From Bacteroidota bacterium (GTDB lineage: Bacteria > Bacteroidota > Bacteroidia > B-17B0 > Aurantibacillaceae): a stretch of DNA of 64,000 nucleotides. Under the pieces are notes generated by a model, which did no database searches, had not been told where the DNA came from, and was given only the letters and a program-made list of their open reading frames with translations. Position numbers and translations under genes: made by a program. The number at the start of each line of letters is the position of its first letter. Within the stretch, counting starts at the first letter, position 1. The stretch lies in the NCBI GenBank assembly GCA_030692515.1, contig JAUXZS010000020.1, positions 186,001-250,000 of the forward strand, written 5' to 3'. This document shows positions 1,975-18,158 of the stretch, piece by piece.

Positions 1975-4698
1975 ATGATTAAAAAAAATCTCATTATACT
2001 ATTAATAGTTTTTTCTTTTTCGGTAAAAGCGCAACAAATAAAACTGTTTGGTAATATCAATGATACCGTAACCAAACAAACATTGCCAAACGCTCTATTA
2101 ATGGCAATAACATTTAAAGATTCTACCCTTGTAAATTTTACCCGTACTAATAACGAAGGCTTTTTTAAACCCATAAAAGTTCCTTTAGATACTTATATTG
2201 TAATTATATCTCACCCTAATTTTAATGATAAAACCTATCTGTTGGTTCCAACAAAAACTGATACAGCTTTTCATTTTAAAAATGTCATACTACCTCCCAA
2301 ATCAATTGTTTTAAATGAAGTAGAAATTATCGCTTTTAAAGACAAAAGTTATTATAAAGGGGACACTTTAATTTTTACTGCCGATTCTTTTAAAACGCAA
2401 ACTAATGCAACTGTTGAAGATTTATTAAAAAAACTACCAGGGGTTAAAGTTGATGCAAAAGGTAAAATTACCATACAAGGAAAACAAGTAGACCAGGTTT
2501 TAGTGGATGGCGACGAGTTTTTTGGTAGCGACCCAACAATAGCTACGCGCAACTTAAATGCAAATACAGTAGATAATGTGCAGGTTTATGAAAAGAAAAG
2601 TGAAGACCCTGATGGCAAAGACGAAACCGTTAAAGTAATAAACCTAAAACTAAAGGATGATTCAAAGAAAGGTTATTTTGGAAAGATAAGTGGGGCAAGT
2701 GATTTTGAAAAATTTTATGAAAACGATTTATTAATCAATAAATTTAAAAAGCAACAAAAAATATCGCTATTTGGCCTCGTCGCCAATACACCAAAACAAG
2801 CATTTGGGTGGGAAGATGAAAATAAGTTTGGGCTAAGTAATGAAAACCCTAATAGCTATGACCCTGAAACAAATACTTGGAATTCTTCAAGGAACGGAAC
2901 CGGTGTACCTCAAACTTTAAAATCGGGATTTTATTTTAATGACAAATTTGGGAAAAACACAAAAGTAAATACCGACTATACCTTTAATCAAAACCAATTA
3001 AAAACTGGTAGTGAAACTAATACGCAATTTTTTTTACCCGATACTAGTTACACCAATCAACAAATACGAACTAACACAAGCCAAAACCAAAGTCACAAAT
3101 TTAATTTTAGATTAACCCAAAAATTAGATTCGTTAACAGAACTAACACTAAAGCCAAAACTTTATTATACACTAAGCGATAACACAAATTCTCAAATAGA
3201 TAAATTCATAACACAAGACGCTATATTAACACGCGAAACCTCAATTTTAAATGCAAGTCATTCAGAATCAACTGATGCAAACATCCTATTAAAAGTGAGT
3301 AGAAATTTCATGAAAAAAGACAGGAACATTACCGTTAGCTATCAACCGTTTTTTTATGATTCAAAATCAAATTCCAACTTAAACACCAATTTTAATTATT
3401 ATCAAAATCAATTAGCAGATTCAACTTTACTTCAAAAACGCACACAAACAAGTCATAGAGAAGAACATGCTGCCTCCATAATTTATACAGAACCATTTAC
3501 AAAAAAATTTAAAACAGAAGTTTCATACAGTTTTAATAATAACAAGAGTAATAATAACCGAACTACATTAGATTATAACGGAACAGGATATGATAACATA
3601 AACCTTTTACAAAGCAATAATTTTAATAATTTACGAGTAACAAACAAAGTTGGTACAAAATTAATTTATGAAGTAAAAAAATACCGAATTACCATTGGCT
3701 CGGCATTTAGAACCATTTATCAGGAAAACATAAACGTTACTAAATCCCAAAAATTAAATCAAACATTTAATAATATTTTACCTTCCGCATCTTTTAATTA
3801 TCGCAAAAATCAGGGCTCTAACTTTACAATTTTCTATAATACGAATGCGCAAACGCCAGATTTGCAACAAATGCAGCCAGTTGTTGATAACACAGATCCT
3901 AATAGAATAACTGTTGGTAATCCAAACTTAAAACCTCAATATAACAATAACATCAATATTAATTATTTCACCTACAAAGGTGTAAGTGACAGACATTTTT
4001 ATTTTGGTGGTAATTATAACATCGTATCAAATGAAATAAACGAAACAACCACTTATGATGCGCAGGGTAAATCTATAACTACACCTATAAATATAAATGG
4101 TAATTACTTTACAAATATTTGGTCTGGCACAGCTTTTCCAATCTTCAATCGTTTTTGTAAAATAAACACCAATATTGGCGCGGGTTTTAACAATAATATA
4201 TCGTATGTAAATGATCAAAAAAATACAACCCAATTTTTTGATATTTCGCCAAACCTTGGAGTTGAAAAACAATTGGATTATTTAGAAGTTTCGTTGATTG
4301 GAAGTTATGGCTACAATATTCCTAAACAAACTATTGCTACTCAACTAAACTCATACTACACCTATGGTTTTGAAGGAAACATTATGTTAAAGTTTCCGAA
4401 AAATTTTAAAATAACTTCAACTGGTAAATACCAAAATAATGGCAACAGAGCGGTAGGTTATAATATAAATTTCTTTATTTTAAATGCAACCGTAAGTAAA
4501 ACATTTTTAAAAAATGAAAATTTAATTGTTTCTGCTGAAGCAAATGATATCTTAAATCAAAACATTAGTAACCAACGTGAAATTGTAATGAATAAAATTA
4601 TTGATACAAAAACACAAATAATTCGTCGCTATTTTTTAGCAAAAGTTATTTTTAAATTTAACAGCTCAAAGAAAAAGGAGGATGAAGATGACTATTAG
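1975..4698 (+). CDS. Outer-membrane beta-barrel protein, TonB-receptor-like with carboxypeptidase-regulatory N-domain
   Basis: 907 residues. Signal peptide MIKKNLIILLIVFSFSVKA, then a CarboxypepD_reg-like beta-sandwich (about 22-110), a plug-like segment (ATVEDLLKKLPGVKVDAKGK near 140-160 and VDQVLVDGDEFFGSD near 170-185), then a long Asn/Thr-rich beta-barrel to the C-terminus, of the OMP_b-brl_3 kind common in Bacteroidota. The last residues are an acidic/basic tail (KKKEDEDDY) instead of a terminal aromatic strand. Likely role is uptake or outer-membrane assembly; the substrate cannot be told. It overlaps the GLPGLI-family gene downstream, so the two are co-expressed and may act together. 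Confidence 0.85.
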   Translation: MIKKNLIILLIVFSFSVKAQQIKLFGNINDTVTKQTLPNALLMAITFKDSTLVNFTRTNNEGFFKPIKVPLDTYIVIISHPNFNDKTYLLVPTKTDTAFHFKNVILPPKSIVLNEVEIIAFKDKSYYKGDTLIFTADSFKTQTNATVEDLLKKLPGVKVDAKGKITIQGKQVDQVLVDGDEFFGSDPTIATRNLNANTVDNVQVYEKKSEDPDGKDETVKVINLKLKDDSKKGYFGKISGASDFEKFYENDLLINKFKKQQKISLFGLVANTPKQAFGWEDENKFGLSNENPNSYDPETNTWNSSRNGTGVPQTLKSGFYFNDKFGKNTKVNTDYTFNQNQLKTGSETNTQFFLPDTSYTNQQIRTNTSQNQSHKFNFRLTQKLDSLTELTLKPKLYYTLSDNTNSQIDKFITQDAILTRETSILNASHSESTDANILLKVSRNFMKKDRNITVSYQPFFYDSKSNSNLNTNFNYYQNQLADSTLLQKRTQTSHREEHAASIIYTEPFTKKFKTEVSYSFNNNKSNNNRTTLDYNGTGYDNINLLQSNNFNNLRVTNKVGTKLIYEVKKYRITIGSAFRTIYQENINVTKSQKLNQTFNNILPSASFNYRKNQGSNFTIFYNTNAQTPDLQQMQPVVDNTDPNRITVGNPNLKPQYNNNININYFTYKGVSDRHFYFGGNYNIVSNEINETTTYDAQGKSITTPININGNYFTNIWSGTAFPIFNRFCKINTNIGAGFNNNISYVNDQKNTTQFFDISPNLGVEKQLDYLEVSLIGSYGYNIPKQTIATQLNSYYTYGFEGNIMLKFPKNFKITSTGKYQNNGNRAVGYNINFFILNATVSKTFLKNENLIVSAEANDILNQNISNQREIVMNKIIDTKTQIIRRYFLAKVIFKFNSSKKKEDEDDY

Positions 4699-5404
4699 AA
4701 AAATCCTTCTCGGTATAATTTTTTGTTTTATTTCCATTACAACAAATGCACAAATTACCGCTGCTAAAATAACTTACGAACGTAAAACTAATCTTTACAA
4801 GAAATTAAAAGGCAATACAGAAAATTGGTTAAAAGAAGAAGATAAAATAAAAATAGATTTTTTTGAATTATATGTTAACGATACATCCTCATTGTTTAAA
4901 CCACAAGAAAGCGAATTACGAGAAAATTTAAGTTGGGCAACTTCAAAAAACACAGTACTTCAAAATTTTAACCTAAATACGCGTTATTTAATAAAAACCA
5001 TTTGGGGCGAAGAATTACATTTAACCGACAGTTTATTTAAGCGCCAATGGCACATTACAGAAAGCAGTCGTAAAATTGCTGGCTATGCCTGTAGAAAAGC
5101 AATTTGGGAACCAAATGATAGCACGAAAATTTATGCTTGGTTTAGTTACGACATAACCCCATCAACCGGACCAGAAAGTTTTAATGGCTTACCAGGAACA
5201 ATCTTAGGTATAGCTACAGAAGACGGTGGCGTTGTTTATTTCGCTAAAAAAGTAGAATTAATAAACCCAGACGCAAAAGTATTTATACTTCCAAAAAAGA
5301 AAAAGGTATATGCTGTAAATGAATTAAAAGCCCAAATGGAAAAACAGTACGGCAAAGAAAAATGGTTTAAAAGAATGCTGAACGAACAGTTTGGTCTTTG
5401 GTAA
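4688..5404 (+). CDS. GLPGLI family secreted protein
   Basis: 238 residues from this start. Signal peptide TIRKILLGIIFCFISITTNA. The family-naming motif is visible as NGLPGTILGI near residues 179-188, with the following VYFAKKVE strand; this matches the Bacteroidota-specific GLPGLI family (TIGR01200), whose function is unknown. The upstream frame offers ATG at 4682 or 4688; an AAGGAG at 4676-4681 sits 6 bp before 4688, a good ribosome-binding spacing, so 4688 is preferred. The start lies inside the 3' end of the beta-barrel gene, a frequent pairing for this family. Confidence 0.88.
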   Translation: MTIRKILLGIIFCFISITTNAQITAAKITYERKTNLYKKLKGNTENWLKEEDKIKIDFFELYVNDTSSLFKPQESELRENLSWATSKNTVLQNFNLNTRYLIKTIWGEELHLTDSLFKRQWHITESSRKIAGYACRKAIWEPNDSTKIYAWFSYDITPSTGPESFNGLPGTILGIATEDGGVVYFAKKVELINPDAKVFILPKKKKVYAVNELKAQMEKQYGKEKWFKRMLNEQFGLW

Positions 5405-5482
5405 AGTCAGTTTACTTTTTTCTAGTAGCGTAAAAAAAAGTTAATTTTAATTAAATAGTGTTATTAACTTAAAAACAAACTA

Positions 5483-5490
5483 TATATTTG
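5483..5490 (+). promoter_or_regulatory. Candidate -7 box (TAnnTTTG) for the RND efflux operon
   Basis: TATATTTG at 5483-5490 matches the Bacteroidota primary-sigma -7 consensus TAnnTTTG exactly and lies 18 bp before the chosen ATG of the first gene. I do not find a good TTG at the expected -33 distance, so this is a weak call. Confidence 0.35.
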
Positions 5491-5508
5491 ATAAAATGTT
5501 TTACTCTA

Positions 5509-5907
5509 ATGTTTAAAGTCCTAAAGGTAAGTATTGCAGTAATAATTTGCACAGCGTTTGTCTTTCGACTTTCATTGATTAATTTTAATTTAATTACCTC
5601 CGTAAAAACTTCTCAAGAGAATTATAAAGTCATAAAAAATGATTTTTCAAGTTCACTAACAAATAAAATAGAGTTTCAATTATCTGATTACGTGGTAAAC
5701 TCTGAATATGCATCAACAGAGATTTGTGAAGAAGATTCTAATGAATTAAGCCAATTAAAAATACATCCTTTTTTCTTAATACAATTTCTGTTCGCACACT
5801 TTTCTAGTAAAACAAATTATCAAGTTGAAAAAATAACACAATTTTATAATTATCTATCCTACGCATCTTCGCATCGCTACCTAAGTTTTCAGGTATTCCA
5901 AATATGA
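5509..5907 (+). CDS. Small membrane-anchored protein heading the RND efflux operon
   Basis: 132 residues from ATG 5509 (the frame also opens at TTG 5488, but ATG 5509 gives a cleaner N-terminus MFKVLKVSIAVIICTAFVF). One hydrophobic segment at about 5-22 looks like a signal anchor; the rest is polar with two histidines near the C-terminus and a second hydrophobic patch HPFFLIQFLFAHF near 86-98. I recognise no family. Its position 160 bp upstream of the adaptor gene suggests membership of the efflux operon; small accessory proteins at this place are seen in other Bacteroidota efflux loci. A regulatory or metal-sensing role would be a guess. Confidence 0.5.
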   Translation: MFKVLKVSIAVIICTAFVFRLSLINFNLITSVKTSQENYKVIKNDFSSSLTNKIEFQLSDYVVNSEYASTEICEEDSNELSQLKIHPFFLIQFLFAHFSSKTNYQVEKITQFYNYLSYASSHRYLSFQVFQI

Positions 5908-6068
5908 TTTCCAAATCCAATTTGGAATTATAAATTACTTTAATAATATTGGTTATTTTAGTTCCAAAAAATTTTATAGCATTTAGCTATATGAATTGGT
6001 AATGTGTTTTTTGCGCTTACCTCTTAAAAAAAATCAACAAAATTTTATTGTTTAAAGAAAAAATTATT

Positions 6069-7151
6069 ATGAAGAGAACTCTCATATTTATGAGCATGTG
6101 CGCCTTGATTTTAATCACAGGCTGCCAATCTGAAAAAGAAGAAAAAGAAGAAGAAACCCAATTTTTAGTTACTAGTCCTTTAAAACAAGACACTATTATT
6201 ACTAGAGAATATGTCTGTCAAGTACATGCCATACAGCATATTGAAGTTAGAGCCTTAGAAAAAGGTTATCTCGAAAAAATTTATGTGGATGAAGGGCAGT
6301 TTGTAAAAAAAGGGCAGTTGATGTTTCAAATTATGCCACTTATATACAATGCAGAACTTCAAAAAGCGCAAGCAGAAGCTAATTTTGTTGAGATTGAATA
6401 CGAAAACACAAAGCAGTTATCCGAAAAAAATGTAGTTTCTCTTAATGAATTAGCGCTTGCAAAAGCAAAATTAGATAAAGCAAAAGCGGAAGTATCATTA
6501 GCGCAAGTACATTTAGGTTTTACCGAAATTAAAGCGCCATTTGATGGTATTATGGATCACTTTCAAGTAAGGCTTGGAAGTCTTATAAATGAAGGTGACT
6601 TGCTTACTACGCTTTCAGATAACAGTGAAATGTGGGTGTATTTTAATGTACCAGAATCTGAGTACTTAAACTATAAAGCACATGCAACAGAAGAAAATTT
6701 GCTAAAAGTAAATTTATTGATGGCGAATAATAAGTTATTTGATTACCCAGGTGTTGTTAGCGCAATCGAAGCAGATTTTAATAATGAAACTGGAAATATA
6801 GCCTTTAGAGCAACTTTTCCTAATCCAAAATCCCTTTTAAGACATGGTGAAACGGGAAATATAGAAATGACAATTCCTCTTATAAATGCAATTATTATTC
6901 CTCAAAAATCAACCTACGAAGTGCTAGAAAAAAAGTTTGTTTTTGTAGTTGATAAAGACAATGTAGTTCATTCAAGAGAAATTATAATAGCCTCTGAAAT
7001 GCCTGATTTATATATTGTGAAAAAAGGATTAGATGCAAGCGAAAAAATAATGTTAGAAGGTATTCGTAAAGTAAAAGACGGAGATAAAATTGAATATAAG
7101 TACGAAGATCCTAAATCAGTTATTCCAAAACTTAGGGTGTACGTTGAATAA
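6069..7151 (+). CDS. RND efflux periplasmic adaptor (membrane fusion) lipoprotein
   Basis: 360 residues from ATG 6069 (the frame extends to TTG 6048, but the lipoprotein signal starts at 6069). Signal MKRTLIFMSMCALILITGC with lipobox LITGC gives a lipid-anchored periplasmic protein. Domains in order: lipoyl/barrel-sandwich half (VEVRALEKGYLEKIYVDEGQ), a helical hairpin of about 50 residues (AELQKAQAEANFVEIEYEN..ALAKAKLDKAKAEV), second lipoyl half (FTEIKAPFDGIMD), then beta-barrel and membrane-proximal domains. This is the AcrA/MexA pattern. It bridges the inner-membrane pump and outer-membrane channel encoded next; the gap to the pump gene is 23 bp. Confidence 0.93.
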   Translation: MKRTLIFMSMCALILITGCQSEKEEKEEETQFLVTSPLKQDTIITREYVCQVHAIQHIEVRALEKGYLEKIYVDEGQFVKKGQLMFQIMPLIYNAELQKAQAEANFVEIEYENTKQLSEKNVVSLNELALAKAKLDKAKAEVSLAQVHLGFTEIKAPFDGIMDHFQVRLGSLINEGDLLTTLSDNSEMWVYFNVPESEYLNYKAHATEENLLKVNLLMANNKLFDYPGVVSAIEADFNNETGNIAFRATFPNPKSLLRHGETGNIEMTIPLINAIIIPQKSTYEVLEKKFVFVVDKDNVVHSREIIIASEMPDLYIVKKGLDASEKIMLEGIRKVKDGDKIEYKYEDPKSVIPKLRVYVE

Positions 7152-7174
7152 TTTAACTATTAAAATAAAATATT

Positions 7175-10100
7175 ATGTTCAGTAAATTCATTCAAAGACC
7201 AGTACTTGCTATAGTTATATCCCTAGTAATATTATTTATAGGCACACTGGCTATTAAAACATTACCTACTTCTCAATTTCCTGAAGTAGCTCCGCCAGTA
7301 GTTATGGTTTCTGCATCGTATCCAGGCGCAAGTGCTAAATCATTAGCCGAATCGGTTATCATTCCTCTAGAGCAATCTATTAATGGCGCTTGGGGTATGC
7401 GCTACATGACTTCTGATGCTACAAGTGCAGGAGAAGCCAATATACAAGTTGTATTTAATCCTGGTACAGATATTAATCAAGCATTAGTTCAAGTTTCTAA
7501 TAGAGTGCAACAAGTAACTAATAGATTACCAATTTTAGTACAACGCGAAGGTGTTGTTATTACACCAGTAATTCCAAGTATGTTGATGTATGTTAACCTT
7601 TATAGTAAAGATAAAGACGCTGACATGAAATTTTTATTCAACTATGCGGGTGTAAACATGGTGCCAGAATTGCAGCGTATTAATGGTATTGGACAAGTTA
7701 GGATATTAGGTAGTAGGCAATACGCTATGCGTGTATGGTTAAATCCAGATAGAATGAGAGCGTATAAAGTTTCTCCTGATGAAGTGATGGAGGCGTTAAG
7801 TGATCAAAGTATTATTGGTAAACCAGGCCGAATTGGAAGAGGTGATAGTAAACAAGCAGAGGCGCTTGAGTATGTATTAACGTATACCGATCGTTTTAAT
7901 GATCCAAAACAATATGAAGATGTTATTATTCGCTCGAATGCAAATGGAGAAAACTTACGACTTAAGGATGTTGCAACTGTTAGTTTAGGGAGTGAATATT
8001 ATGATATTTATTCAAGTATGAATGGGCATCCATCGGCTGCTCTGGTTTTAAAACAAACATACGGCAGCAATGCAAGCGAGGTAATTGAAAAAGTAAAAGA
8101 AAAATTAGATGAGCTAAAAAAAACTTTCCCACAAGGAATGGAATACGAAGTTAGTTACGACGTTTCTAATTTCTTAGATGCATCCATTGAGAATGTAATG
8201 CATACTTTAAGAGATGCATTTATTTTAGTTGCTTTAGTTGTTTTTGTTTTTCTTGGCGACTGGCGATCAACTCTCATACCTACTCTAGCAGTTCCTATTT
8301 CTTTAATTGGTGCTTTCTTCTTTATGCAATTGTTTGGGCTAACCATTAACATGGTTACTTTGTTTGCTCTAGTTTTAGCAATTGGTATAGTCGTCGATGA
8401 TGCCATTGTCGTCGTCGAGGCAGTGCATGCTAAGATGGAAGAAGAAAATCTTTCGCCTTATAATGCCGTTAGAAAAGTTATAGGCGAAATTAGTGGGGCA
8501 GTTATTGCCATTACTTTATTAATGGTTGCAGTATTTGTTCCCGTATCATTTATGTCGGGGCCAGTTGGTACTTTCTACCGTCAGTTTTCTATTACAATGG
8601 CATCTTCAATTGTGCTTTCAGGTGTTGTGGCACTTACGGTAACACCTGTGTTATGCGCTATGATTTTAAAAAACAATCATGGGCAACCAAGAAAGAAAAC
8701 TTGGATGAATCGTTTTTTAGATAGTTTTAATAGAGGCTTTGAAAAACTAACAGGTAAATATGTTTGGCTGTTGAGAATAATTGCCCATAGAAGAATAGTA
8801 ACAATAGGTTTATTTGTGGTATTTGCTCTTGGTATAATTGGTATTAGTAGTAGTTTACCATCAGGCTTTATTCCAAGCGAAGATCAGGGAATGCTTTATG
8901 CAATTATACAAACTCCTCCTGGTTCAACTCTCGAAAGAACAAATGATTTATCTAATAAATTAGTAAAAGTTATTCAAAAAACTGAAGGTGTAAAATCAGT
9001 ATCCTCTATTGCAGGGTATGAAGTATTAACTGAAGGAAGAGGATCTAATGCTGGTACTTGTTTAATTAATCTAAAACCTTGGTCAGACAGAAAACATTCA
9101 GTAACCGAAATTATTGAAGAGTTAGAGCAAAAGGCAAAAGAAATTCCTGGCGCAACTATCGAATTCTTTGATCCGCCAGCTGTTCCTGGATTTGGAGCTG
9201 CAGGTGGTTTTGCCTTGCAATTATTAGATAAAACTAATAGTGGCGATTATAAGCAACTTGAAAAAGTAACTACCGATTTTATGAATGAAATGAGAAAGCG
9301 TAAAGAACTGACTGGTTTATTTACTTTTTTCAGTGCTAATTATCCTCAATACGAAATTGAAATTGATAATCAAGCAGCCATGCAAAAAGGAGTTACAATT
9401 GGTAATGCTATGAACACGCTTTCTATTTTTGTGGGAAGTACTTATGAGCTTGGTTTTATTAAGTATCAACGTTTCTTTAAAGTGTTTGTTCAAGCAGCAC
9501 CAGAATATAGAAAACTGCCAACAGACATCATGAATTTATATGTAAAAAATAATCGTGAAGAAATGGTTCCATTTTCCGCCTTTATGAAAATTCATAAAAA
9601 GCAAGGAGCTAATGAAATTAATAGGTATAACATGTACAATACTGCCGCTATTAGAGGTGGACCCGCTAAAGGTTATAGCAGCGGAGAAGCTATTGCGGCT
9701 GTAAAAGAAGTTGCGGCAAAAACTTTACCTCATGGTTATGATATTGATTGGGCTGCACTTTCGTATGATGAAACACGTCGTGGAAATGAAGCCATATATA
9801 TATTTATTATTGTATTAATATTTGTGTACTTCGTGTTAGCCGCTCAGTACGAAAGTTTTGTTATTCCATTAGCGGTTATATTTTCATTGCCAGCTGGAGT
9901 TTTTGGATCATTCTTAATGATTAAAGGCTTTGGTTTAGCAAATGATATTTATGCTCAAGTGGGTTTAGTAATGCTAGTAGGCTTACTCGGTAAAAACGCA
10001 GTGTTAATTGTTGAGTTTGCTGTACTTAAACATAAGCAAGGTGCAACCATTTTAGAGGCCGCTATTGAAGGTGCAAAAGTTCGTTTCCGTCCAATTTTAA

Positions 10101-10378
10101 TGACATCCTTTGCCTTTATTGCGGGCTTAATTCCATTAGTGTTTGCACATGGTGCAGGTGCAATTGGTAACCGTACTATTGGTGCATCTGCTTTAGGCGG
10201 TATGCTTTTTGGAACCTTATTCGGAGTAATTATTGTGCCAGGATTATATTATATTTTTGGCTCAATGGTAGAAGGACGTAAGCTAATTAAAAACGAAGAC
10301 GATAGTTCATTAACCGAAGATTTAGTTCATAAAATTGACGATTTTCCAACAACACTAGAAAGTGATGATCATGCTTAA
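7175..10378 (+). CDS. RND multidrug efflux pump, HAE1/AcrB type
   Basis: 1067 residues, full length for the hydrophobe/amphiphile efflux subfamily. Starts MFSKFIQRPVLAIVISLVIL (TM1), followed by the first porter domain, TM2-7, second porter domain and TM8-12. The proton relay pair Asp-Asp is in TM4 (GIVVDDAIVVVE, near residue 408) and the matching Lys lies in TM10 (GLLGKNAVLIVEF). These mark an H+-driven HAE1 pump for organic substrates; the heavy-metal (CusA) signature is not seen. It exports drugs, dyes or lipophilic metabolites from periplasm through the downstream channel. The C-terminal coding end overlaps the channel gene by 8 bp. Confidence 0.96.
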   Translation: MFSKFIQRPVLAIVISLVILFIGTLAIKTLPTSQFPEVAPPVVMVSASYPGASAKSLAESVIIPLEQSINGAWGMRYMTSDATSAGEANIQVVFNPGTDINQALVQVSNRVQQVTNRLPILVQREGVVITPVIPSMLMYVNLYSKDKDADMKFLFNYAGVNMVPELQRINGIGQVRILGSRQYAMRVWLNPDRMRAYKVSPDEVMEALSDQSIIGKPGRIGRGDSKQAEALEYVLTYTDRFNDPKQYEDVIIRSNANGENLRLKDVATVSLGSEYYDIYSSMNGHPSAALVLKQTYGSNASEVIEKVKEKLDELKKTFPQGMEYEVSYDVSNFLDASIENVMHTLRDAFILVALVVFVFLGDWRSTLIPTLAVPISLIGAFFFMQLFGLTINMVTLFALVLAIGIVVDDAIVVVEAVHAKMEEENLSPYNAVRKVIGEISGAVIAITLLMVAVFVPVSFMSGPVGTFYRQFSITMASSIVLSGVVALTVTPVLCAMILKNNHGQPRKKTWMNRFLDSFNRGFEKLTGKYVWLLRIIAHRRIVTIGLFVVFALGIIGISSSLPSGFIPSEDQGMLYAIIQTPPGSTLERTNDLSNKLVKVIQKTEGVKSVSSIAGYEVLTEGRGSNAGTCLINLKPWSDRKHSVTEIIEELEQKAKEIPGATIEFFDPPAVPGFGAAGGFALQLLDKTNSGDYKQLEKVTTDFMNEMRKRKELTGLFTFFSANYPQYEIEIDNQAAMQKGVTIGNAMNTLSIFVGSTYELGFIKYQRFFKVFVQAAPEYRKLPTDIMNLYVKNNREEMVPFSAFMKIHKKQGANEINRYNMYNTAAIRGGPAKGYSSGEAIAAVKEVAAKTLPHGYDIDWAALSYDETRRGNEAIYIFIIVLIFVYFVLAAQYESFVIPLAVIFSLPAGVFGSFLMIKGFGLANDIYAQVGLVMLVGLLGKNAVLIVEFAVLKHKQGATILEAAIEGAKVRFRPILMTSFAFIAGLIPLVFAHGAGAIGNRTIGASALGGMLFGTLFGVIIVPGLYYIFGSMVEGRKLIKNEDDSSLTEDLVHKIDDFPTTLESDDHA

Positions 10379-11804
10379 AAATAAATTATATAAATTTTTA
10401 GGGATAACCTTGCTTACCCTATTATACACTGCCTGCAGTGTACCCAACTTTGGGCGGAAAACAGAAAACAAAACAGTTCCTACAAGCTATAATGATTCAA
10501 AGGATACAGTTAATACTGCAAAAACAAAGTGGAAAGATTATTTTAAAGATCCACAATTAACTGCGCTTATTGATTCTGCTTTAACAAAAAATCAGGAACT
10601 AAATATTGTGTTGCAGGAAATTAATATTTCTAAAAACGAAGTAAGAGCGCGTAAAGGAGCGTTCTTGCCTTTTATGAATGCTGGTGTTGGTGCTGGTGCA
10701 GAAAAAGTTGGTAGATATACTAGTCAAGGAGCAAGCGATGCTAACAACCAAATTATGCCTGGTAAAGAGTTTCCTGATCCTTTACAAAATTATCTCTTAG
10801 GCGTTAATGTTTCGTGGGAAGTGGATATATGGAAAAAACTACGCAATTCAAAAAAGTCAGCTTTATACAAATACTTATCTACGGTTGAAGGCAAAAATTT
10901 TATGGTAACTAATTTGATTTCTGAGATTGCCAATTCATATTACGAATTGGTTGCATTAGATAATCAACTTGATATTTTAAATAAGAATATTGATCTATAC
11001 CTAAATTCACTTGAAATTGTAAAATTAGAAAAGCAATCTGCAAGAGTAACTGAATTAGCTGTGCGAAGATTTGAAGCCGAAGTTTTAAAAAATCAAAGTA
11101 GGAAGTATTATATTATGCAACAAATTACTATAACCGAAAATAAAATTAATTTTTTAGCAGGTAGGTTTCCACAAAATGTTGCAAGAAATTCTGTAAACTT
11201 TACTGATTTAGTTATCGACTCCATTCATGCTGGTATTCCATCACAACTATTATCAAATCGTAGTGATATTAGACAAGCGGAGCAAGGATTATTATCGGCT
11301 AAGTTAGATGTAAAAGCTGCTAAAGCAGAATTTTACCCTTCTTTTTTTATTAATGCTGGTGCCGGTTTTAATGCCTTTAATCCAAAGTATTTAATTCAAG
11401 CACCTCAATCTTTATTATATAATATTGCAGGTGATTTAGTAGCGCCATTAATTAATAGAAATGCAATTAAAGCAAATTTTTATTCTGCTAATTCCAAACA
11501 AATTCAAGCAGTGTATAATTATGAACGTGCTATTTTAAAAGCTCATATTGAAGTGGTTAATCAACTATCAAATATTAATAATTTAAACAAGAGTTACGAT
11601 TTAAAAAGCAAACAAGTTCAGGCTTTAACCGAGTCTATTGATATTTCAACTACTTTATTTAAATCGGCAAGAGCCGATTATATGGAGGTATTATTAACAC
11701 AACGTGATGCCTTAGAATCAAAAATTGAATTAGTTGAAACTAAAAAACTACAAATGAATGCGATGGTAAATATGTATAAAGTATTAGGTGGAGGATGGAA
11801 TTAA
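10371..11804 (+). CDS. RND efflux outer-membrane channel lipoprotein, TolC/NodT family
   Basis: 477 residues from ATG 10371, whose ATGCTTAA overlaps the pump stop (GTG 10362 and ATG 10365 are in-frame alternatives). Lipobox LLYTAC near residue 18 predicts an outer-membrane lipoprotein. The typical repeated structure is visible: two halves, each with a long coiled-coil region (ALTKNQELNIVLQEINISKNEV..; RSDIRQAEQGLLSAKLDVKAAKAEFYP near 300) and beta-barrel strands (PSFFINAGAGFNAF). RSDIRQAE is a hallmark of the NodT/OprM branch. It forms the exit duct for the pump. A strong intrinsic terminator follows 25 bp after the stop. Confidence 0.94.
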   Translation: MLKNKLYKFLGITLLTLLYTACSVPNFGRKTENKTVPTSYNDSKDTVNTAKTKWKDYFKDPQLTALIDSALTKNQELNIVLQEINISKNEVRARKGAFLPFMNAGVGAGAEKVGRYTSQGASDANNQIMPGKEFPDPLQNYLLGVNVSWEVDIWKKLRNSKKSALYKYLSTVEGKNFMVTNLISEIANSYYELVALDNQLDILNKNIDLYLNSLEIVKLEKQSARVTELAVRRFEAEVLKNQSRKYYIMQQITITENKINFLAGRFPQNVARNSVNFTDLVIDSIHAGIPSQLLSNRSDIRQAEQGLLSAKLDVKAAKAEFYPSFFINAGAGFNAFNPKYLIQAPQSLLYNIAGDLVAPLINRNAIKANFYSANSKQIQAVYNYERAILKAHIEVVNQLSNINNLNKSYDLKSKQVQALTESIDISTTLFKSARADYMEVLLTQRDALESKIELVETKKLQMNAMVNMYKVLGGGWN

Positions 11805-11828
11805 TTTAATAATGTATTAAACAAACAT

Positions 11829-11864
11829 AAAACCCTCGTTAGTGAAAACTTTCGAGGGTTTTTT
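11829..11864 (+). terminator. Rho-independent terminator of the efflux operon
   Basis: AAAACCCTCG (11829-11838) pairs perfectly with CGAGGGTTTT (11853-11862), a 10-bp stem with a 14-nt loop followed by more T. It starts 24 bp after the channel gene stop. Confidence 0.9.
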
Positions 11865-11979
11865 ATTATTCTAAAATTAAAGAACTAAATAGATATGTTA
11901 AAACGCAACAATTCTTTATCTTTACTCGCAAACACATTAATAACTATATCTTTATCACACAAATCAAATTCAAATAAAA

Positions 11980-13443
11980 ATGAGTCAAGAAATAAGAAAC
12001 CTAGAACCAAACCAATTGTGGAATAAATTTGCAGACCTTAACGCTGTGCCCCGTCCTTCTAAAAAAGAAGAACGTGTAATTGAGTTTGTGGTAAATTTTG
12101 GGAAGAGTTTAGGTTTAGAAACTTTTTTAGATGATGTTAAAAATGTAATTATCAGAAAGCCTGCCACTGCAGGAATGGAAAACAGGAAGGCAATTGTTTT
12201 ACAATCTCACTTAGACATGGTGCATCAAAAAAATTCTGATACCGTTTTTGATTTTGATAAACAAGGCATAGAAATGTATGTTGATGGAGATTGGGTAAGA
12301 GCAAAAGGCACAACCCTTGGAGCCGACAATGGCATTGGTGTAGCAACCATTATGGCAATATTAGAAAGTAAAGATATTGCGCACCCTGCTATTGAAGCTT
12401 TGTTTACTATTGATGAAGAAACAGGAATGACGGGCGCTTTAGGGCTTAAAGGAGGAATACTAAAAGGAGAAATACTATTAAACTTAGATACTGAAGAAGA
12501 TACAGATATTACAATTGGCTGCGCCGGCGGTGTTGATGTAACAGCAACAAGAAAATACAATCAAGTAACTACACCAAACAATGTTGTTGGATATGCTATT
12601 ACTGTTAAAGGATTAAGCGGCGGGCATTCTGGAATGGACATACACAAAGGTTTAGGCAACGCCAATAAAATAATGAACCGTTTATTATATAATGGTCTCG
12701 AAAAATTTTCTTTGCAAGTTGCAGAAATAAATGGCGGCAGTTTGCGCAATGCCATACCCCGCGAGAGTAGTGCGAAAATTGTTATTGCTGAAAAATCAAC
12801 TACTTCATTTATAAAGGAGTTTGAAGCTTTAAGTAACATCATAAAAACAGAATTTAAAACAGTAGAACCTAACTTAACTATTGAACTTACAAAAATTGAT
12901 GCCCCTGCAAAAGTGATGGACAGCGAAGTTCAAAAAACAATTGTTAAAGCTATTTATGCGGCTCAAAATGGTGTTTATCGCATGAGCAATACAATGAAGG
13001 ACCTAGTTGAAACATCCAATAATATTGCTCGCATATTAATTAAAGACGGAGAAATTTTAATTGCCTGTTTAACACGTTCATCGGTTGAAACATCAAAAAA
13101 TGATTTAGCTAATTCATTACAATCTGCTTTTGAATTAGCGAGCTGCCAAGTAACCCAAACTGGCTCATACCCTGGGTGGACACCAAATGTATCTTCTCCA
13201 ATTTTAGACGTACTAGCAAGTGTTTACCAAAAACAAAACAACTCAAAACCAAATGTTGTTGCTTGCCATGCTGGTTTAGAATGTGGTATTTTAGGAACCA
13301 ATTATCCAAACATGGATATGGTTTCTTTTGGGCCAACCATCAGAGGCGCCCACTCTCCAGATGAAAGAGCAAGCATCTCTTCGGTACAAAAATATTGGAA
13401 CTATGTTTTAGAAATTTTGGTTAATATTCCGCTTAAAAAATAA
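11980..13443 (+). CDS. pepD: Aminoacyl-histidine dipeptidase (cytosolic non-specific dipeptidase, M20C)
   Basis: 487 residues, typical PepD length. It hydrolyses dipeptides such as Xaa-His in the cytoplasm with two metal ions. Metal-site motifs: SHLDMVHQ (near 70-77), LGADNGIGVA (near 113-122), DEETGMTGA (near 145-153, containing the catalytic Glu), LDTEE (near 173) and the C-terminal ACHAGLECG with the last His ligand near 430. The lid/dimerisation domain is inserted at about 190-380, with the substrate-binding GGHSGMDIH. No signal peptide. The gene stands alone, preceded by the efflux terminator and followed by repeat-rich DNA. Confidence 0.95.
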   Translation: MSQEIRNLEPNQLWNKFADLNAVPRPSKKEERVIEFVVNFGKSLGLETFLDDVKNVIIRKPATAGMENRKAIVLQSHLDMVHQKNSDTVFDFDKQGIEMYVDGDWVRAKGTTLGADNGIGVATIMAILESKDIAHPAIEALFTIDEETGMTGALGLKGGILKGEILLNLDTEEDTDITIGCAGGVDVTATRKYNQVTTPNNVVGYAITVKGLSGGHSGMDIHKGLGNANKIMNRLLYNGLEKFSLQVAEINGGSLRNAIPRESSAKIVIAEKSTTSFIKEFEALSNIIKTEFKTVEPNLTIELTKIDAPAKVMDSEVQKTIVKAIYAAQNGVYRMSNTMKDLVETSNNIARILIKDGEILIACLTRSSVETSKNDLANSLQSAFELASCQVTQTGSYPGWTPNVSSPILDVLASVYQKQNNSKPNVVACHAGLECGILGTNYPNMDMVSFGPTIRGAHSPDERASISSVQKYWNYVLEILVNIPLKK

Positions 13444-13502
13444 TTTTTTTGAATAATTTGTAACTAGTTCGAATGGATTGCAAATCTTCGAAAACTGTTA
13501 CG

Positions 13503-13615
13503 CCTCCCCCTGCCTCCTCCAGAGGGGGACAAGCTAAGTGTGCTCCGCTTAAAAAATGTTCTATTATGCATGCTGTATATCCTCCTCTCGAGGAGGTGTC
13601 CGAAGGACGGAGGAG
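13503..13615. repeat. CCTCC/GGAGG intergenic inverted-repeat element
   Basis: GC-rich block in an AT-rich neighbourhood, made of short inverted repeats: CCCCCTGCCTCC...AGAGGGGGAC near 13504-13529, CCTCCTC/GAGGAGG near 13580-13595 and GTCCGAAGGAC near 13598-13608, ending in a GGAGGAGGA plus T-run. The wording resembles intergenic repeats I know from other Bacteroidota. It forms the left part of the 507-bp gene-free stretch 13444-13950; the rest holds the decayed gene fragment and operator array listed below. Confidence 0.6.
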
Positions 13616-13686
13616 GATTTTTCGTAATCTTAAAAACAAATAAAAATTCCCACGGATTTGTAATACATGTGCCATATTTTCATTTT

Positions 13687-13831
13687 TCACCTCGCCTCTA
13701 CTCCTTTAATAAAATCTGTAATTCAATAGGCAATTAATTTATCCGTTTTGTTACCGGCTTTAATATGCGAGAGTACCGGCGCACATTCTGTAATGTGTAA
13801 ATAAATAGTGTTTAAGTCTTGGTGCAGTTAG
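13687..13831 (-). pseudogene. Decayed 3' fragment of an arginase/formimidoylglutamase-family gene
   Basis: Read on the minus strand this stretch encodes a near copy of the last ~45 residues of the intact gene at 15399-16427. Peptide identities include YLHI-E-APVLSHIKA, then NKT-KLIAY and ITDFIKGVEAR followed at once by a stop (TGA here, TAG in the intact gene). It has an in-frame TGA where the intact gene has Leu (KLIAY*ITDF) and a Gly-to-Cys change, and it lacks all upstream coding sequence. The nucleotide match to 15399-15543 is gap-free at roughly three quarters identity by eye, with many differences at third positions, so the copy diverged partly while still under selection or came from a related genome. 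Confidence 0.82.
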
Positions 13832-13840
13832 AGATAAACT

Positions 13841-13943
13841 TCAATTTGGCTATAACTTAATTGTTTTTAATACTTATAGCCAATATTGATTTAATACCAT
13901 TTTGGCTGTAAGTCTATTATTTTGTATATTTATAGCCAAAATG
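13841..13943. promoter_or_regulatory. Four-copy TTGGCTATAA motif array upstream of the ATPase gene
   Basis: A 10-bp motif occurs four times in alternating orientation: TTGGCTATAA at 13846-13855, TTATAGCCAA at 13874-13883, TTGGCTGTAA at 13902-13911 and TTATAGCCAA at 13930-13939. Start-to-start spacing is exactly 28 bp each time. The second pair extends to 14-bp arms (13898-13911 / 13930-13943) with one G-T mismatch. The last copy ends 11 bp before the ATPase ATG. This looks like a multi-site operator or a tandemly duplicated palindromic promoter. Confidence 0.75.
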
Positions 13944-13950
13944 AAAAATT

Positions 13951-15363
13951 ATGCTAATCGGTAGAGAAAAAGAAATAGCGCTTCTAAATGAAAAATTCGC
14001 ATCCCCTAAATCAGAGTTTGTGGCTTTATACGGCAGGCGCAGAATAGGTAAAACCTACCTCATAAGAAATGTATTTGAGAATAAATTCACATTCAAACTT
14101 ACTGGTCTTGCTCAGGTAAACTTGCAGGAGCAGCTTACTAATTTTGATATGGCTATGCAAGACCAGTACCCTAAAATCGTTCGTGAAAATCCTACTAACT
14201 GGATGAAAGCCTTTCAGCAAATCAAACAAATCATAGAAAGTTCGAAACAAAAGAAAAAAATTATTTTTATTGACGAATTACCTTGGTTTGACACAGCTCA
14301 CTCGGGCTTCATTCCGGCATTAGAACATTTTTGGAACAGTTGGGCCTCCGCAAAAAAAGATATTTTATTGTTGGTGTGTGGGTCTGCTGCCTCGTGGATG
14401 ATAAACACACTCATAAACAATAAAGGAGGCTTGCACAATCGTATAACTCAAAAAATAAAAATAGAACCTTTTACACTAAAGGAATGTGATGAATTACTAA
14501 AACATAAAAAGATAGCTTTAGATAACTACCAACTTGTACAACTCTATATGGCTTTGGGTGGTATTCCTTTTTATTGGGAAGCTATAGAAAAAGGACTTAG
14601 CGCCTCTCAAAACATCAATAAAATTTGCTTTGAAGCCAATGGATTACTTATAGGAGAATTTGACAATTTATTTAAATCATTATTTACTAAAGCCGAACGC
14701 CACGAAGCTATTATCTCTGCTTTGGCAAAAAAGAGTAAGGGATTAACACGCGAAGAAATTAGTACAGGGAGCATGCTTGCAAATGGCGGAGGTCTCACAC
14801 GTTTATTAAATGAGCTCGAAGAAAGTGGTTTTATTAGGCGCTATGTTCCTTTTGGTAAAAAATCAAGAAATAGCCTTTATCAATTATCTGACTTCTTTTC
14901 TTTGTTTCACATAAAATTTATAAAAAATCAAAAAACTTTTGACAAAAATCATTGGCTGAAACTAATTGATAGTCCAAAACACAGAGCCTGGAGCGGGTAT
15001 GCTTTTGAACAAGTTTGCCTTGCTCATGTACCTCAAATAAAAAAAGCATTGGGTATAGATGGTATAGAAACAGAAACATCTTCCTGGAAAAGTGTACAAG
15101 CTAAAGACGGTGCCCAAATAGACTTAGTTATTGATCGAAGAGATGGCGTAATTAATTTGTGTGAGATGAAGTTTTCTATCAGTCCATTTATTATTGATAA
15201 AAAATATGATGCTGAATTACGAAATAAAATTGGTGCTTTTAAAACCGAAACTCGCACAAAAAAATCACTATTCCTTACAATGCTTACTACTTTTGGTTTG
15301 CAAGTAAATACCTATTCAGGCAACGTTCAAAACGATTTGAAAATGGATGTTCTGTTTAAATAA
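13951..15363 (+). CDS. AAA ATPase (ATPase_2) with winged helix and DUF234/PD-(D/E)XK-like C-terminal domain
   Basis: 470 residues. P-loop GRRRIGKT at 28-35, Walker B KIIFIDELPW at 103-112, sensor-like LLVCGSAASWM near 140-150, a winged helix at about 248-312 (LTREEISTGSM..LTRLLNELEESGFIRR), and a C-terminal domain with Glu353, Asp391 and Glu405-x-Lys407, the spacing of a PD-(D/E)XK nuclease fold. This is the ATPase_2 plus DUF234 architecture, widespread and mobile in archaea and Bacteroidota, with no settled function. ATG 13951 is chosen; an 8-codon reading frame (MKNYANR, stop) starts at 13941 and overlaps it. It sits between a decayed and an intact copy of the same gene end, which suggests recent acquisition. 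Confidence 0.9.
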   Translation: MLIGREKEIALLNEKFASPKSEFVALYGRRRIGKTYLIRNVFENKFTFKLTGLAQVNLQEQLTNFDMAMQDQYPKIVRENPTNWMKAFQQIKQIIESSKQKKKIIFIDELPWFDTAHSGFIPALEHFWNSWASAKKDILLLVCGSAASWMINTLINNKGGLHNRITQKIKIEPFTLKECDELLKHKKIALDNYQLVQLYMALGGIPFYWEAIEKGLSASQNINKICFEANGLLIGEFDNLFKSLFTKAERHEAIISALAKKSKGLTREEISTGSMLANGGGLTRLLNELEESGFIRRYVPFGKKSRNSLYQLSDFFSLFHIKFIKNQKTFDKNHWLKLIDSPKHRAWSGYAFEQVCLAHVPQIKKALGIDGIETETSSWKSVQAKDGAQIDLVIDRRDGVINLCEMKFSISPFIIDKKYDAELRNKIGAFKTETRTKKSLFLTMLTTFGLQVNTYSGNVQNDLKMDVLFK

Positions 15364-15398
15364 ATGTAAGCTTGTTAACTGTAAGCGGCAGAAAAAAA

Positions 15399-16427
15399 CT
15401 ACCTTGCTTCTACACCTTTAATAAAATCAGTAATTAAATAGGCAATTAATTTTCCGGTTTTATTGTCGGCTTTAATATGAGATAATACTGGTGCTCCCTC
15501 TGCAATATGTAAATACACGGCGTTTAAATTTTTAGCACAATTAAAAACATATTGCCTTGCTTGCACGGGTGAAATACCAGAACTTGTTTTTGCACTGGAT
15601 GGCACATTGGTAATAGCATCTAAATCTAATTCAACGCCGCACACTTCGTTTTTAACAAAGCCAATACTTTGTTTTAAAGCGGCATTAAAATCTAACTCTT
15701 CTCTTACAAAAATTGATTCGTAAGTATTAAAAAAAAGTTGCGATGGGTTATTTTTAAACTGGTCTAATGCAACTTTACTATTATATTGCTCATGCATTGC
15801 AAAAACAGAATATTTATTTATAAAACCATTTTTAAAAGCATAGCTAAAACCGTTCCCACTGTGCCTGCCATCTAATTGTCTAAAATCTAAATGAGCATCA
15901 CAATTTATAACATTAATTTTTTTATTCAAGGCGTGAAAAGCTCCGCTAATATTACCATAAGCATTGTTATGTCCACCACCAATAACAATTGGTGTTTTTT
16001 TAAATTGAATAATTGTTTTAATAACTTCTGTTACACGTTCATCAATTTGCGCTACAAAAGAACGAAGATGTGTAATATCACTTTTACTTTTAGAATCGTA
16101 TTCAGAAGCTTTTTCCATAATATCATCCACAAAAACTTCGCCCAACACAAAAATAGATTCAGCATTTAAGAAATGATTGTTTTGTTGAATTAAAAAACTT
16201 TCTAGTGCCGGTTTAAAAGCAGTGTTTGTTCCTGCTCTACCATAATTGGCGCGCACACCAATATCTTCGGGAATACCAATAATAACAAACTTAGCTTTAC
16301 TTTCCTCAAGCTCAGCTTTCCAATTTTTGGTTGTAGCCTCAACCACTTCACCAACTTTTAATTCGCCCGTGCGTTTACGTGTTAACTTTGAAACAAACTC
16401 TTTGGTATAAACTTTTACTGTTTCCAT
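15399..16427 (-). CDS. Ureohydrolase (arginase / formimidoylglutamase family)
   Basis: 342 residues. All six Mn-ligand positions are present: GGGHN (His153), DAHLDFR (Asp177, His179, Asp181) and ELDLDA (Asp268, Asp270), so it should be catalytically active. The family hydrolyses a guanidino or formimino group to release urea or formamide. Bacteroidota proteins of this kind are usually annotated formimidoylglutamase (HutG), the last step of one histidine-breakdown route, but no other hut gene is in the window, so the substrate is open. Its final 145 bp are duplicated in decayed form at 13687-13831. It is the next gene after gldM on the same strand, with a terminator between. Confidence 0.85.
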   Translation of the reverse strand: METVKVYTKEFVSKLTRKRTGELKVGEVVEATTKNWKAELEESKAKFVIIGIPEDIGVRANYGRAGTNTAFKPALESFLIQQNNHFLNAESIFVLGEVFVDDIMEKASEYDSKSKSDITHLRSFVAQIDERVTEVIKTIIQFKKTPIVIGGGHNNAYGNISGAFHALNKKINVINCDAHLDFRQLDGRHSGNGFSYAFKNGFINKYSVFAMHEQYNSKVALDQFKNNPSQLFFNTYESIFVREELDFNAALKQSIGFVKNEVCGVELDLDAITNVPSSAKTSSGISPVQARQYVFNCAKNLNAVYLHIAEGAPVLSHIKADNKTGKLIAYLITDFIKGVEAR

Positions 16428-16490: not shown

Positions 16491-18158
16491 TTACTTAACT
16501 ACAATTTTTATTAACGGAAAATCCCTTTCTCCATCAGGTGCTTGCACTCGTATGTTCTCAAAATAAATTTTATTACCTACTTTCAATTTTAGCAATGCCT
16601 CTTTAGCAGTGGGAGACAATTGGCTTCCTATACACTTATAATCTTGACTCACTCCAGAAGAGTTAACTATATTCATAACAAACTCATTCATTTTAAAAGG
16701 AGCAATAAAATCGAAACCTGCATTATCCACTCCAATCGCATTGATGTTTTTAGCTTCAGCTAATTTCATATCCAAATTTCCATAAGTACTTTTTCCCGAA
16801 ACTTTTAATGGAGGGTTAGGAAAACGTTTTACCCTAAAATATTGTGGAGAGCCTTGCCTTTTTAATCCACCTGCAGTTCGTTGCATAACGGTAACCACAC
16901 AAGTACCTGTGCCGCTAACTTTAGTGGTATATTTACCATTTCCATTATTTGCTATAGTTGCATTACATCCACTAATTGTAACAACCAAATCAGTTGGAGC
17001 TACACCGGCAGCCGATACTGTTAAAGGATTTTCGACTCCTGCATATAACACATTCATTTTATCGGGACTAACAGCAACAGCTGCATTTGCAACAACAAAA
17101 TCGTTTTCATATTTAAAATATTTATACAGACCATCGCCCCCTTTAAATTTTATCCATCCCTTAATATCTTTATGACCAGCAATGGAAGTTGGAATATTTA
17201 TTTTTCCGGTTCCATTATCTATCGGCAAAACAATAGCCGCATCACTCATTTTTCCTGTAGCAGTATCAACATCGCCTAAAATAAACTGCATGTTTTCATC
17301 ATTAAACGTTGTAGAAGAGGCTGTTAAAAAAACATCAGCAGTATAAGCAGAGCCTGATTGAATATAATTACTTACAGGCACAATACGTGCTTGCAATACA
17401 TCAAACTTAATTGCCAATTTCCCTGCGGCAGCAGCAAATGAATTAACCATTTCAGATTCAATATTCCTAATATCTGTTTGCATTTTAGATAAGTTTGTAA
17501 TTACACCTGCAAGAGGCATGTTATAAAAATTTTTTAACTCCCACGAAATGGCTTTCGCCTCCTTATCCTTATAATTATCATGCGGCGTAAATAATTTTAT
17601 TTTATCTTTTAATACCAAATAATCTTCTGCCGGCAACATTAATCCTTCCTTGTCTTTCATCTCATCAATCATTTTGTTTAAAGACGTAGTTAAGCCTTCA
17701 ATAGTATGTCGTAATTCTTTAGCAGAATGTTTTGCTTCTGTTGGTTTAGTTTCATCGGTACCAATTAATAAATACGTTGGTCTATCATAATCATCCAACC
17801 TTTCAATTCTTGCTAATTTCATTGTATCAGAGCCTTTAACGTTTTCGGTATACTGCTGCACATTTTGTTTTAGAATAGTTATATAATCAAATGTTTTTTG
17901 AGATAACTCTGTTACTTCTTTGGCTTTTAAATAGTAAGGTTTCGCTTCGTTCTTTCCATTTTTAATTGCTAATTGAAAAGCATCCATCATTTTTTTGGTA
18001 TTTGAACTAAAATTCAAATTTGTAGTTTCAATACTTTCATTAATAGTAACAAAGCCTTGTAAAACTTCTTTACTAACATTTAGCGCGAGTAGACAAGTAA
18101 GAACGAGGTACATCATTCCTATCATTTTTTGACGAGGGGTTTCTTTTGCATTGCTCAT
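16491..18158 (-). CDS. gldM: GldM, type IX secretion / gliding motor subunit
   Basis: 555 residues, slightly longer than the roughly 515 of well-studied GldM. Starts MSNAKETPRQKMIGMMYLVL; a single transmembrane helix at about 13-30 (MMYLVLTCLLALNVS) is followed by ..KEVLQGFVTINESIETTN.., the diagnostic N-terminal block. The long periplasmic part has a helical region to about 230 and then immunoglobulin-like beta domains (SPDKMNVLYAGVENPLTVSAAG near 365-386). With GldL it forms the proton-driven rotary motor that powers T9SS secretion and gliding. Usually it lies in gldKLMN; here K, L and N are absent, so this is an isolated copy. T9SS substrates occur in the same window. Confidence 0.92.
   Translation of the reverse strand: MSNAKETPRQKMIGMMYLVLTCLLALNVSKEVLQGFVTINESIETTNLNFSSNTKKMMDAFQLAIKNGKNEAKPYYLKAKEVTELSQKTFDYITILKQNVQQYTENVKGSDTMKLARIERLDDYDRPTYLLIGTDETKPTEAKHSAKELRHTIEGLTTSLNKMIDEMKDKEGLMLPAEDYLVLKDKIKLFTPHDNYKDKEAKAISWELKNFYNMPLAGVITNLSKMQTDIRNIESEMVNSFAAAAGKLAIKFDVLQARIVPVSNYIQSGSAYTADVFLTASSTTFNDENMQFILGDVDTATGKMSDAAIVLPIDNGTGKINIPTSIAGHKDIKGWIKFKGGDGLYKYFKYENDFVVANAAVAVSPDKMNVLYAGVENPLTVSAAGVAPTDLVVTISGCNATIANNGNGKYTTKVSGTGTCVVTVMQRTAGGLKRQGSPQYFRVKRFPNPPLKVSGKSTYGNLDMKLAEAKNINAIGVDNAGFDFIAPFKMNEFVMNIVNSSGVSQDYKCIGSQLSPTAKEALLKLKVGNKIYFENIRVQAPDGERDFPLIKIVVK

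Follow-up and report, generated by a model that had tools for sequence, protein, structure and literature searches.

The 64,000-nucleotide stretch analysed here (positions 186,001 to 250,000 of contig JAUXZS010000020.1, hereafter the window) comes from a Bacteroidota bacterium of the Aurantibacillaceae. It carries, between two copies of the 3' end of a ureohydrolase gene, a gene for an ATPase that matches the PADLOC defence candidate PDC-S27 (hereafter S27). One copy closes the intact ureohydrolase gene and the other is a free fragment. The most fitting reading is that of a scar left by import next to a known defence candidate; events of this kind are known, and the locus is a variant whose signature recurs in similar form at other S27 loci. 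From the fragment to the intact gene, the locus consists of the following features (coordinates of the window):

13687 to 13831, minus strand: second ureohydrolase 3' end (the fragment), with an in-frame TGA; secure part 13689-13820 (alignment, protein search)
13842 to 13942: two imperfect palindromes (13842-13886 and 13898-13942), 5' of the ATPase gene (sequence inspection)
13951 to 15363, plus strand: ATPase with a C-terminal PD-(D/E)XK-type motif, PADLOC PDC-S27 (PDLC04984, E 1e-205; ATPase_2, E 3e-17; D391, E405 and K407 invariant in 15 homologues)
15364 to 15398: 35-base spacer from the ATPase stop to the ureohydrolase stop (sequence, open reading frames)
15399 to 15543, minus strand: 3' end of the intact ureohydrolase gene, the partner of the fragment (alignment)
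15399 to 16427, minus strand: intact ureohydrolase (arginase family) gene (open reading frame; PF00491, E 2.9e-18)

Set against the final 145 bases of the ureohydrolase gene, the fragment needs no gaps: 106 of 145 positions are identical, and the differences fall on 23 third, 10 first and 6 second codon positions. The best local alignment comprises 105 identities over 132 bases (80%, E 9e-32); the first ~13 bases of the fragment (13819-13831) align poorly, and by eye a one-base indel may stretch the match to ~13829. Translated in the frame of the gene, the fragment retains most C-terminal residues; it has an internal and a terminal TGA and no coding part upstream. The content between the two gene ends is the two palindromes and one gene (13951-15363). 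The fragment runs to 13831 and the S27 unit begins at 13834, the cargo directly abutting the partial copy. DNA homology with a second ATPase copy in the same genome spans 13834-15360 only, which places the fragment outside the ATPase unit. Alignment and translation thereby bear out what the initial annotation had described from the letters alone: the ungapped match to the last 145 bases, the interrupted and truncated reading frame, and the position of the ATPase between the two ends. Its statement that no integrase is present also holds among the open reading frames of the interval 5405-15398, which separates the ureohydrolase gene from a GLPGLI-family gene on that side. A protein search of the genome with the ureohydrolase recovered the intact gene, the fragment and one weak, distant family match. 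No comparable gene-end fragments were found in 800 kb of other DNA (two 400-kb stretches from two genomes of the genus), where 8 raw hits comprised six inside neighbouring similar open reading frames and two free in a repeat array. The sequence ATTACAAATCCGTG past the stop of the fragment has one site in the window, which equals chance expectation.

Over the final 43 codons, 18 of 42 third positions differ between the intact end and the fragment, a divergence comparable to that between species of the genus (the whole-gene third-position distance to the relative G012 is 0.43); for first and second positions the figure is 8 of 84. The third-position counts and the codon models exclude the 13 leading bases of the fragment and its internal stop codon. 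Two clock-like codon models were fitted to the last 43 codons with branch lengths taken from the first 299. The model in which the fragment has been neutral since separation (log-likelihood, lnL, -753.8) fits worse than the model in which it stayed functional after separation and then became neutral (-741.6, likelihood ratio 24.3). At the best fit of this late decay, the neutral phase of the fragment takes up ~9% of the terminal branch of the gene. Most of the divergence thus arose while both copies were coding, and therefore one end was probably imported; the diverged rather than freshly duplicated copy proposed earlier is thus upheld. On five tree placements the omega of the fragment is 0.54, 0.38, 1.55, 0.26 and 0.26 (0.046 for the genes), and an omega of 1 lies within 0.2 lnL of the best value on three of the five.

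The arrangement is absent from the relatives compared. None of 29 ureohydrolase loci of relatives has S27 beside the gene or a second gene end (the sequence beyond the gene is at least 1.3 kb in 25 loci and 0.7-1.1 kb in 3, and in L029 the stretch ends inside the gene). Relatives that lack the ATPase and share the tandem fragment, which the initial annotation had named as evidence against an insertion, do not occur among these 29. No fragment of the ureohydrolase gene was found in the other seven of the eight equivalent intervals compared, and no second full copy was seen in the relatives examined; the additional pieces in G009 and G022 apparently belong to a single gene, interrupted by a contig end or by a break. 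The search for an empty site had a divided outcome: G006 has an empty interval of 32 bp, and no relative's locus matches the sequence at 13.44-13.69 kb, so none joins that sequence to the ureohydrolase 3' end.

On balance, the locus is probably an integrase-free import scar, left when a foreign S27 gene arrived together with a gene end and was joined at one side by homology and at the other without it. The incoming DNA would have come from another lineage in which a PDC-S27 gene with its palindromic upstream region lay beside a ureohydrolase 3' end. It would have recombined by homology inside the recipient ureohydrolase gene, its other end being joined without homology. The likely routes are a circularised fragment integrating by a single crossover, which would create the mosaic gene, the cargo and the abutting partial copy in one step, or one homologous plus one illegitimate joint, which would give the same product. 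In either case the intact gene would be a mosaic of the recipient's 5' part and an imported 3' end, followed by the cargo and then by the displaced old 3' end, now decaying. Both homology-facilitated illegitimate recombination and circularisation with single crossing-over have been reported in the laboratory (PMC3240628). The likeness lies in one joint with homology, one without, and no need for a site-specific recombinase; that such recombination yields a mosaic gene and a partial copy is what we infer for it. The difference is that the process has been seen in transformation and conjugation, whereas here it is deduced from DNA sequence.

We lean towards the intact 3' end as the imported one, because of a ratio test at silent sites and because S27 and the intact end, which converge across a 35-base spacer, make a natural pair. 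The ratio (distance to seven relatives divided by their own spread) is 1.55 for the intact 3' end (resampling p 0.003), has a mean of 1.17 and a maximum of 1.39 in 43-codon windows of the rest of the gene, and is an ordinary 1.21-1.24 for the fragment. The expectation that the fragment would match relatives better than the intact end is not clearly borne out over all positions (0.70-0.75 ungapped and 0.74-0.80 gapped for the fragment, 0.78-0.81 for the intact end) and holds at third positions, where the fragment is the closer of the two to six of the seven relatives. A mosaic breakpoint at the 5' boundary of the fragment would agree with the ratio test (p 0.003) and finds no echo in a codon-model test (p 0.83). 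Third positions are near saturation.

Several results weigh against an import, or against our choice of the imported end. Taken by itself, the distance of the intact end falls within the ordinary range (p 0.20), and low spread among the relatives in that stretch (p 0.03) drives part of the ratio. The codon-model test for an unusual intact 3' end gives a multiplier of 1.12 (p 0.83; its six control blocks were badly optimised and were taken from a separate profile instead), and that profile is flat. Block 86-129 of the profile prefers a longer own branch, with a gain of ~3 lnL; excesses of this sort therefore also occur elsewhere in the gene. The intact gene and the fragment share four states that are absent from the seven close relatives, and any donor must therefore be a near relative. 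As to a donor, no ureohydrolase gene was found in 135 S27 records and no S27 beside the 29 ureohydrolase genes. In the tree, three placements of the fragment lie within 0.8 lnL, with support of 70 on the full alignment and 34-39 on the 3' part. The separation depth in the clock-like model runs to its upper bound, and the exact date of separation is for this reason not to be trusted. In a polarised count the bias towards third positions lies on the intact gene, with none on the fragment; taken alone, this would suit a local duplication. We rejected this local-duplicate reading, as the clock-like codon test points the opposite way. Finally, the four clear gene-end loci near S27 in 136 records (1.28 Mb), with none in 0.8 Mb of other DNA, do not amount to a significant enrichment (0.14 by length).

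Similar arrangements were found at other S27 loci and at other genes. We screened 112 records (1.10 Mb, 820 open reading frames; 96 S27 records) for free gene-end fragments near their intact gene, and a further 40 S27 records (409 kb); the loci were chosen for S27, and the same species may be present twice, unmerged. Free hits in the 112 records were the fragment of the window, one in L145 and two in L168, and in the further 40 records L280 and the complex L302. A similar arrangement thus exists at 3 of 135 other S27 loci (L145, L168 and L280), involving other genes and 5' as well as 3' ends. In L145, from a Saprospiraceae metagenome-assembled genome (MAG), the 3' end of the S27 gene itself is the target rather than the cargo, and its copy follows a Fic gene that matches SoFic and PDC-S04. 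These copies span 138 bases with 90% identity, the fragment overlaps the Fic stop, and the differences fall 10:3:1 on third, first and second positions; one residue differs near the junction, and the remaining differences are silent. L168 (Lutibacter MAG) has two 5' fragments of a Polysacc_synt_2 gene, one before and one after S27, with differences of 12:1:2 and 8:1:0 in the same order; a DUF1016/YhcG gene matching PDC-S02 precedes the intact Polysacc_synt_2 gene. In L280 a ketol-acid reductoisomerase gene has a 165-base copy of its 3' end, with differences of 12:5:1 across the coding part. This fragment abuts the downstream palindrome of S27 at 4508 and is separated by 5.7 kb from the gene, which reaches towards the end of the available stretch. 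The codon models were fitted at the locus of the window only and these three were judged by difference counts; their third-position bias would suggest that imported ends, not fresh duplications, fit this small set. Left uncounted were repeats that are not clearly the ends of intact genes (L129, with ~170-base repeats, and L278, L291, L295, L300 and L303, with long direct repeats), weaker or intergenic repeats (L136, L149, L191), the nested copies of L302, and hits inside open reading frames (L089, L302, L305).

The question addressed by such loci is how single-gene defence candidates like PDC-S27 move without recombinases. A displaced end that differs at silent sites would record an import and separate transfer from local duplication; it would also give a relative date and could name the donor, and the three further S27 loci make the route testable. 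More speculatively, and with considerable doubt, small defence genes of Bacteroidota may spread recurrently without integrases as circularised or one-sided DNA that replaces a gene end and leaves a scar of 80-165 bases. Such scars, so far read as target duplications, would then be mosaic-gene signatures that date each transfer and point to the donor lineage.

An insertion in which the cassette duplicated ~140 bases of the recipient's own gene end would produce the same geometry, a defence-type gene between direct gene-end copies, and the copies of 132-145 bases on both sides of the insert are what a long target duplication requires. For restriction-modification genes, such duplications were reportedly described by Nobusato et al. 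(2000) and Furuta et al. (2010). They are cited for these genes in PMC3031569 and PMC4978471. In both situations recipient DNA is present in direct copies around a selfish or defence-type gene, with no obvious recombinase; the difference is that here the copies had diverged before the event, mostly while coding, and one was probably imported. A target duplication predicts copies that start identical and decay neutrally, a model 12 lnL worse at our locus (likelihood ratio 24.3), and the copies in L145, L168 and L280, by counts only, also differ mainly at third positions. We regard it as improbable. An older full paralogue, a possibility already raised in the initial annotation, would account equally well for the divergence at silent sites and for a late loss of constraint, if tandem functional genes diverged, one was cut to its last 140 bases and S27 then entered. 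This history needs a long-lived duplicate, of which no second full copy is seen in any relative of the set, and a deletion that ends at the ATPase unit; we consider it unlikely.

Classical integrative elements displace and restore gene 3' ends, and the initial annotation had drawn the parallel with them. A site-specific element that entered at the 3' end of the gene, supplied its own copy of that end and later lost its integrase would leave the pattern seen here, and a tyrosine recombinase does lie near another S27 copy (L082). The parallel does not hold up well: the interval has no integrase among its open reading frames, gene-end copies are absent from all 26 related S27 loci, and the other cases concern unrelated genes, including a 5' end. 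An integrative element is accordingly quite improbable. Very improbable, in our view, is that the ATPase moves by itself, its nuclease using flanking palindromes as ends. Matching short repeats do occur on both sides of S27 at 9 of 26 related and 12 of 78 other loci (2 of 80 loci with short flanks were left out) and at L280. At the window locus, however, no palindrome copy was found 3' of the S27 gene, and the upstream copies could be explained by autoregulation. The exact pattern TTGGCTNTAAN{10,30}TTATAGCCAA, with no mismatches allowed, occurs at this locus only in the genome, and we rejected the palindromes as a genome-wide repeat family or transposon ends. The import of a foreign gene end is thus the preferred reading; the observation made on the sequence is real, and its interpretation was right in part.

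The scar lies at one border of a variable interval, whose other features and conserved neighbours are as follows:

4682 to 5404, plus strand: GLPGLI-family gene (Porph_ging), the opposite border of the interval (PF09697, E 3.7e-8)
6048 to 11804, plus strand: efflux system genes (HlyD-, AcrB- and OEP-type) within the interval (domain matches)
11980 to 13443, plus strand: beta-Ala-His dipeptidase gene (pepD), in the same interval in the relative G012 (TIGR01893, E 1.6e-175)
13444 to 13686: intergenic stretch from the dipeptidase gene to the fragment, unmatched in the loci of relatives
16491 to 18158, minus strand: gldM, a conserved neighbour of the ureohydrolase gene (TIGR03517; synteny)

On the 5' side of the ureohydrolase gene, 14 of 16 stretches from relatives have gldM, or else the conserved gene that follows it, as neighbour, and on the opposite side the close relatives have the GLPGLI-family gene in convergent orientation. 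The stretch from the GLPGLI-family gene to the ureohydrolase gene (5405-15398 in the window; L033-L039) is a hotspot of gene content that ranges from 32 bp to 10 kb among eight relatives: 32 bp in G006, 1121 in G019, 2608 in G026, 3607 in G007, 3621 in G021, 6693 in G012 and 9994 in the window. In G035 no GLPGLI gene was found; there the next conserved gene lies 3841 bp away. The contents include a HigB-type toxin and a helix-turn-helix protein (G035), a helix-turn-helix protein matching PDC-M64 (G021), a ferritin (G026), a response regulator (G007), and secreted proteins with pepD (G012). The open reading frames of the window interval encode an unassigned protein of 139 residues, HlyD, AcrB, OEP, the dipeptidase and S27, and pepD is common to this interval and that of G012. 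Variable cassettes between two conserved genes, or minimal mobile elements, are known from work on Neisseria (our literature search found no paper). The differing content of the interval in eight related species resembles them; exchange of such an element is not known to leave a displaced gene end, whereas the locus of the window has one. Between pepD and the fragment, 13505-13620 is GC-rich in AT-rich surroundings and by eye has the look of an inverted repeat; it may be a dispersed repeat.

The cargo is a typical S27 member. It matches the PADLOC model PDLC04984 over its full length (residues 2-469 of 470, E 1e-205) and ATPase_2 of Pfam (E 3e-17), and its Walker A residues and QxD...ExK motif (389-407) are invariant in 15 homologues, the assignment to PD-(D/E)XK being by motif. 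From these matches the gene is a probable anti-virus gene, as a single-gene PADLOC candidate. In the available part of PMC12988326, PDC-S27 is presented as a fusion of an ATPase with a PD-(D/E)XK domain, detected by guilt by embedding; the text terms the PDCs unvalidated and mentions neither palindromes nor gene-end scars. Judged by titles and the starts of abstracts, no description of gene-end scars at PDC-S27 was found in the literature. The second ATPase copy of the genome has 81% protein identity, and S27 is patchy (10 of 60 genomes searched, this genome counted, in 3 of 24 genera). In G009 and G010 (L083, L084) the PDC-S27 gene lies between dapD and cmk; among the dapD loci L095-L124, cmk is within 1.5 kb on the 3' side of dapD without PDC-S27 in 19 of 30.

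Palindromes upstream of PDC-S27 vary in sequence between genes, and some loci have an extra copy directly after the stop (examples are 13842-13942 of the window, L055-L057, L061-L063, L065, L066, L070, L140, L147, L167, L178 and L194). An inverted repeat score of at least 11 is reached within 130 bases upstream of S27 at 54 of 78 loci (1.3% in pair-block shuffles) and within 90 bases downstream at 14 of 78 (shuffles 0), the two loci with short flanks again being left out. Other repeats accompany single S27 genes. In L303, PDC-S27 lies between direct repeats of 381 bases (4202-4581 and 6542-6919) that are 92% identical and apparently mostly non-coding. In L129 (968-5623, Bacteroidales MAG), a ~170-base repeat recurs after each of three units: a BrnT/antitoxin pair, a nucleotidyltransferase/HEPN pair and a PDC-S27 gene. 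The layout resembles an integron cassette array.

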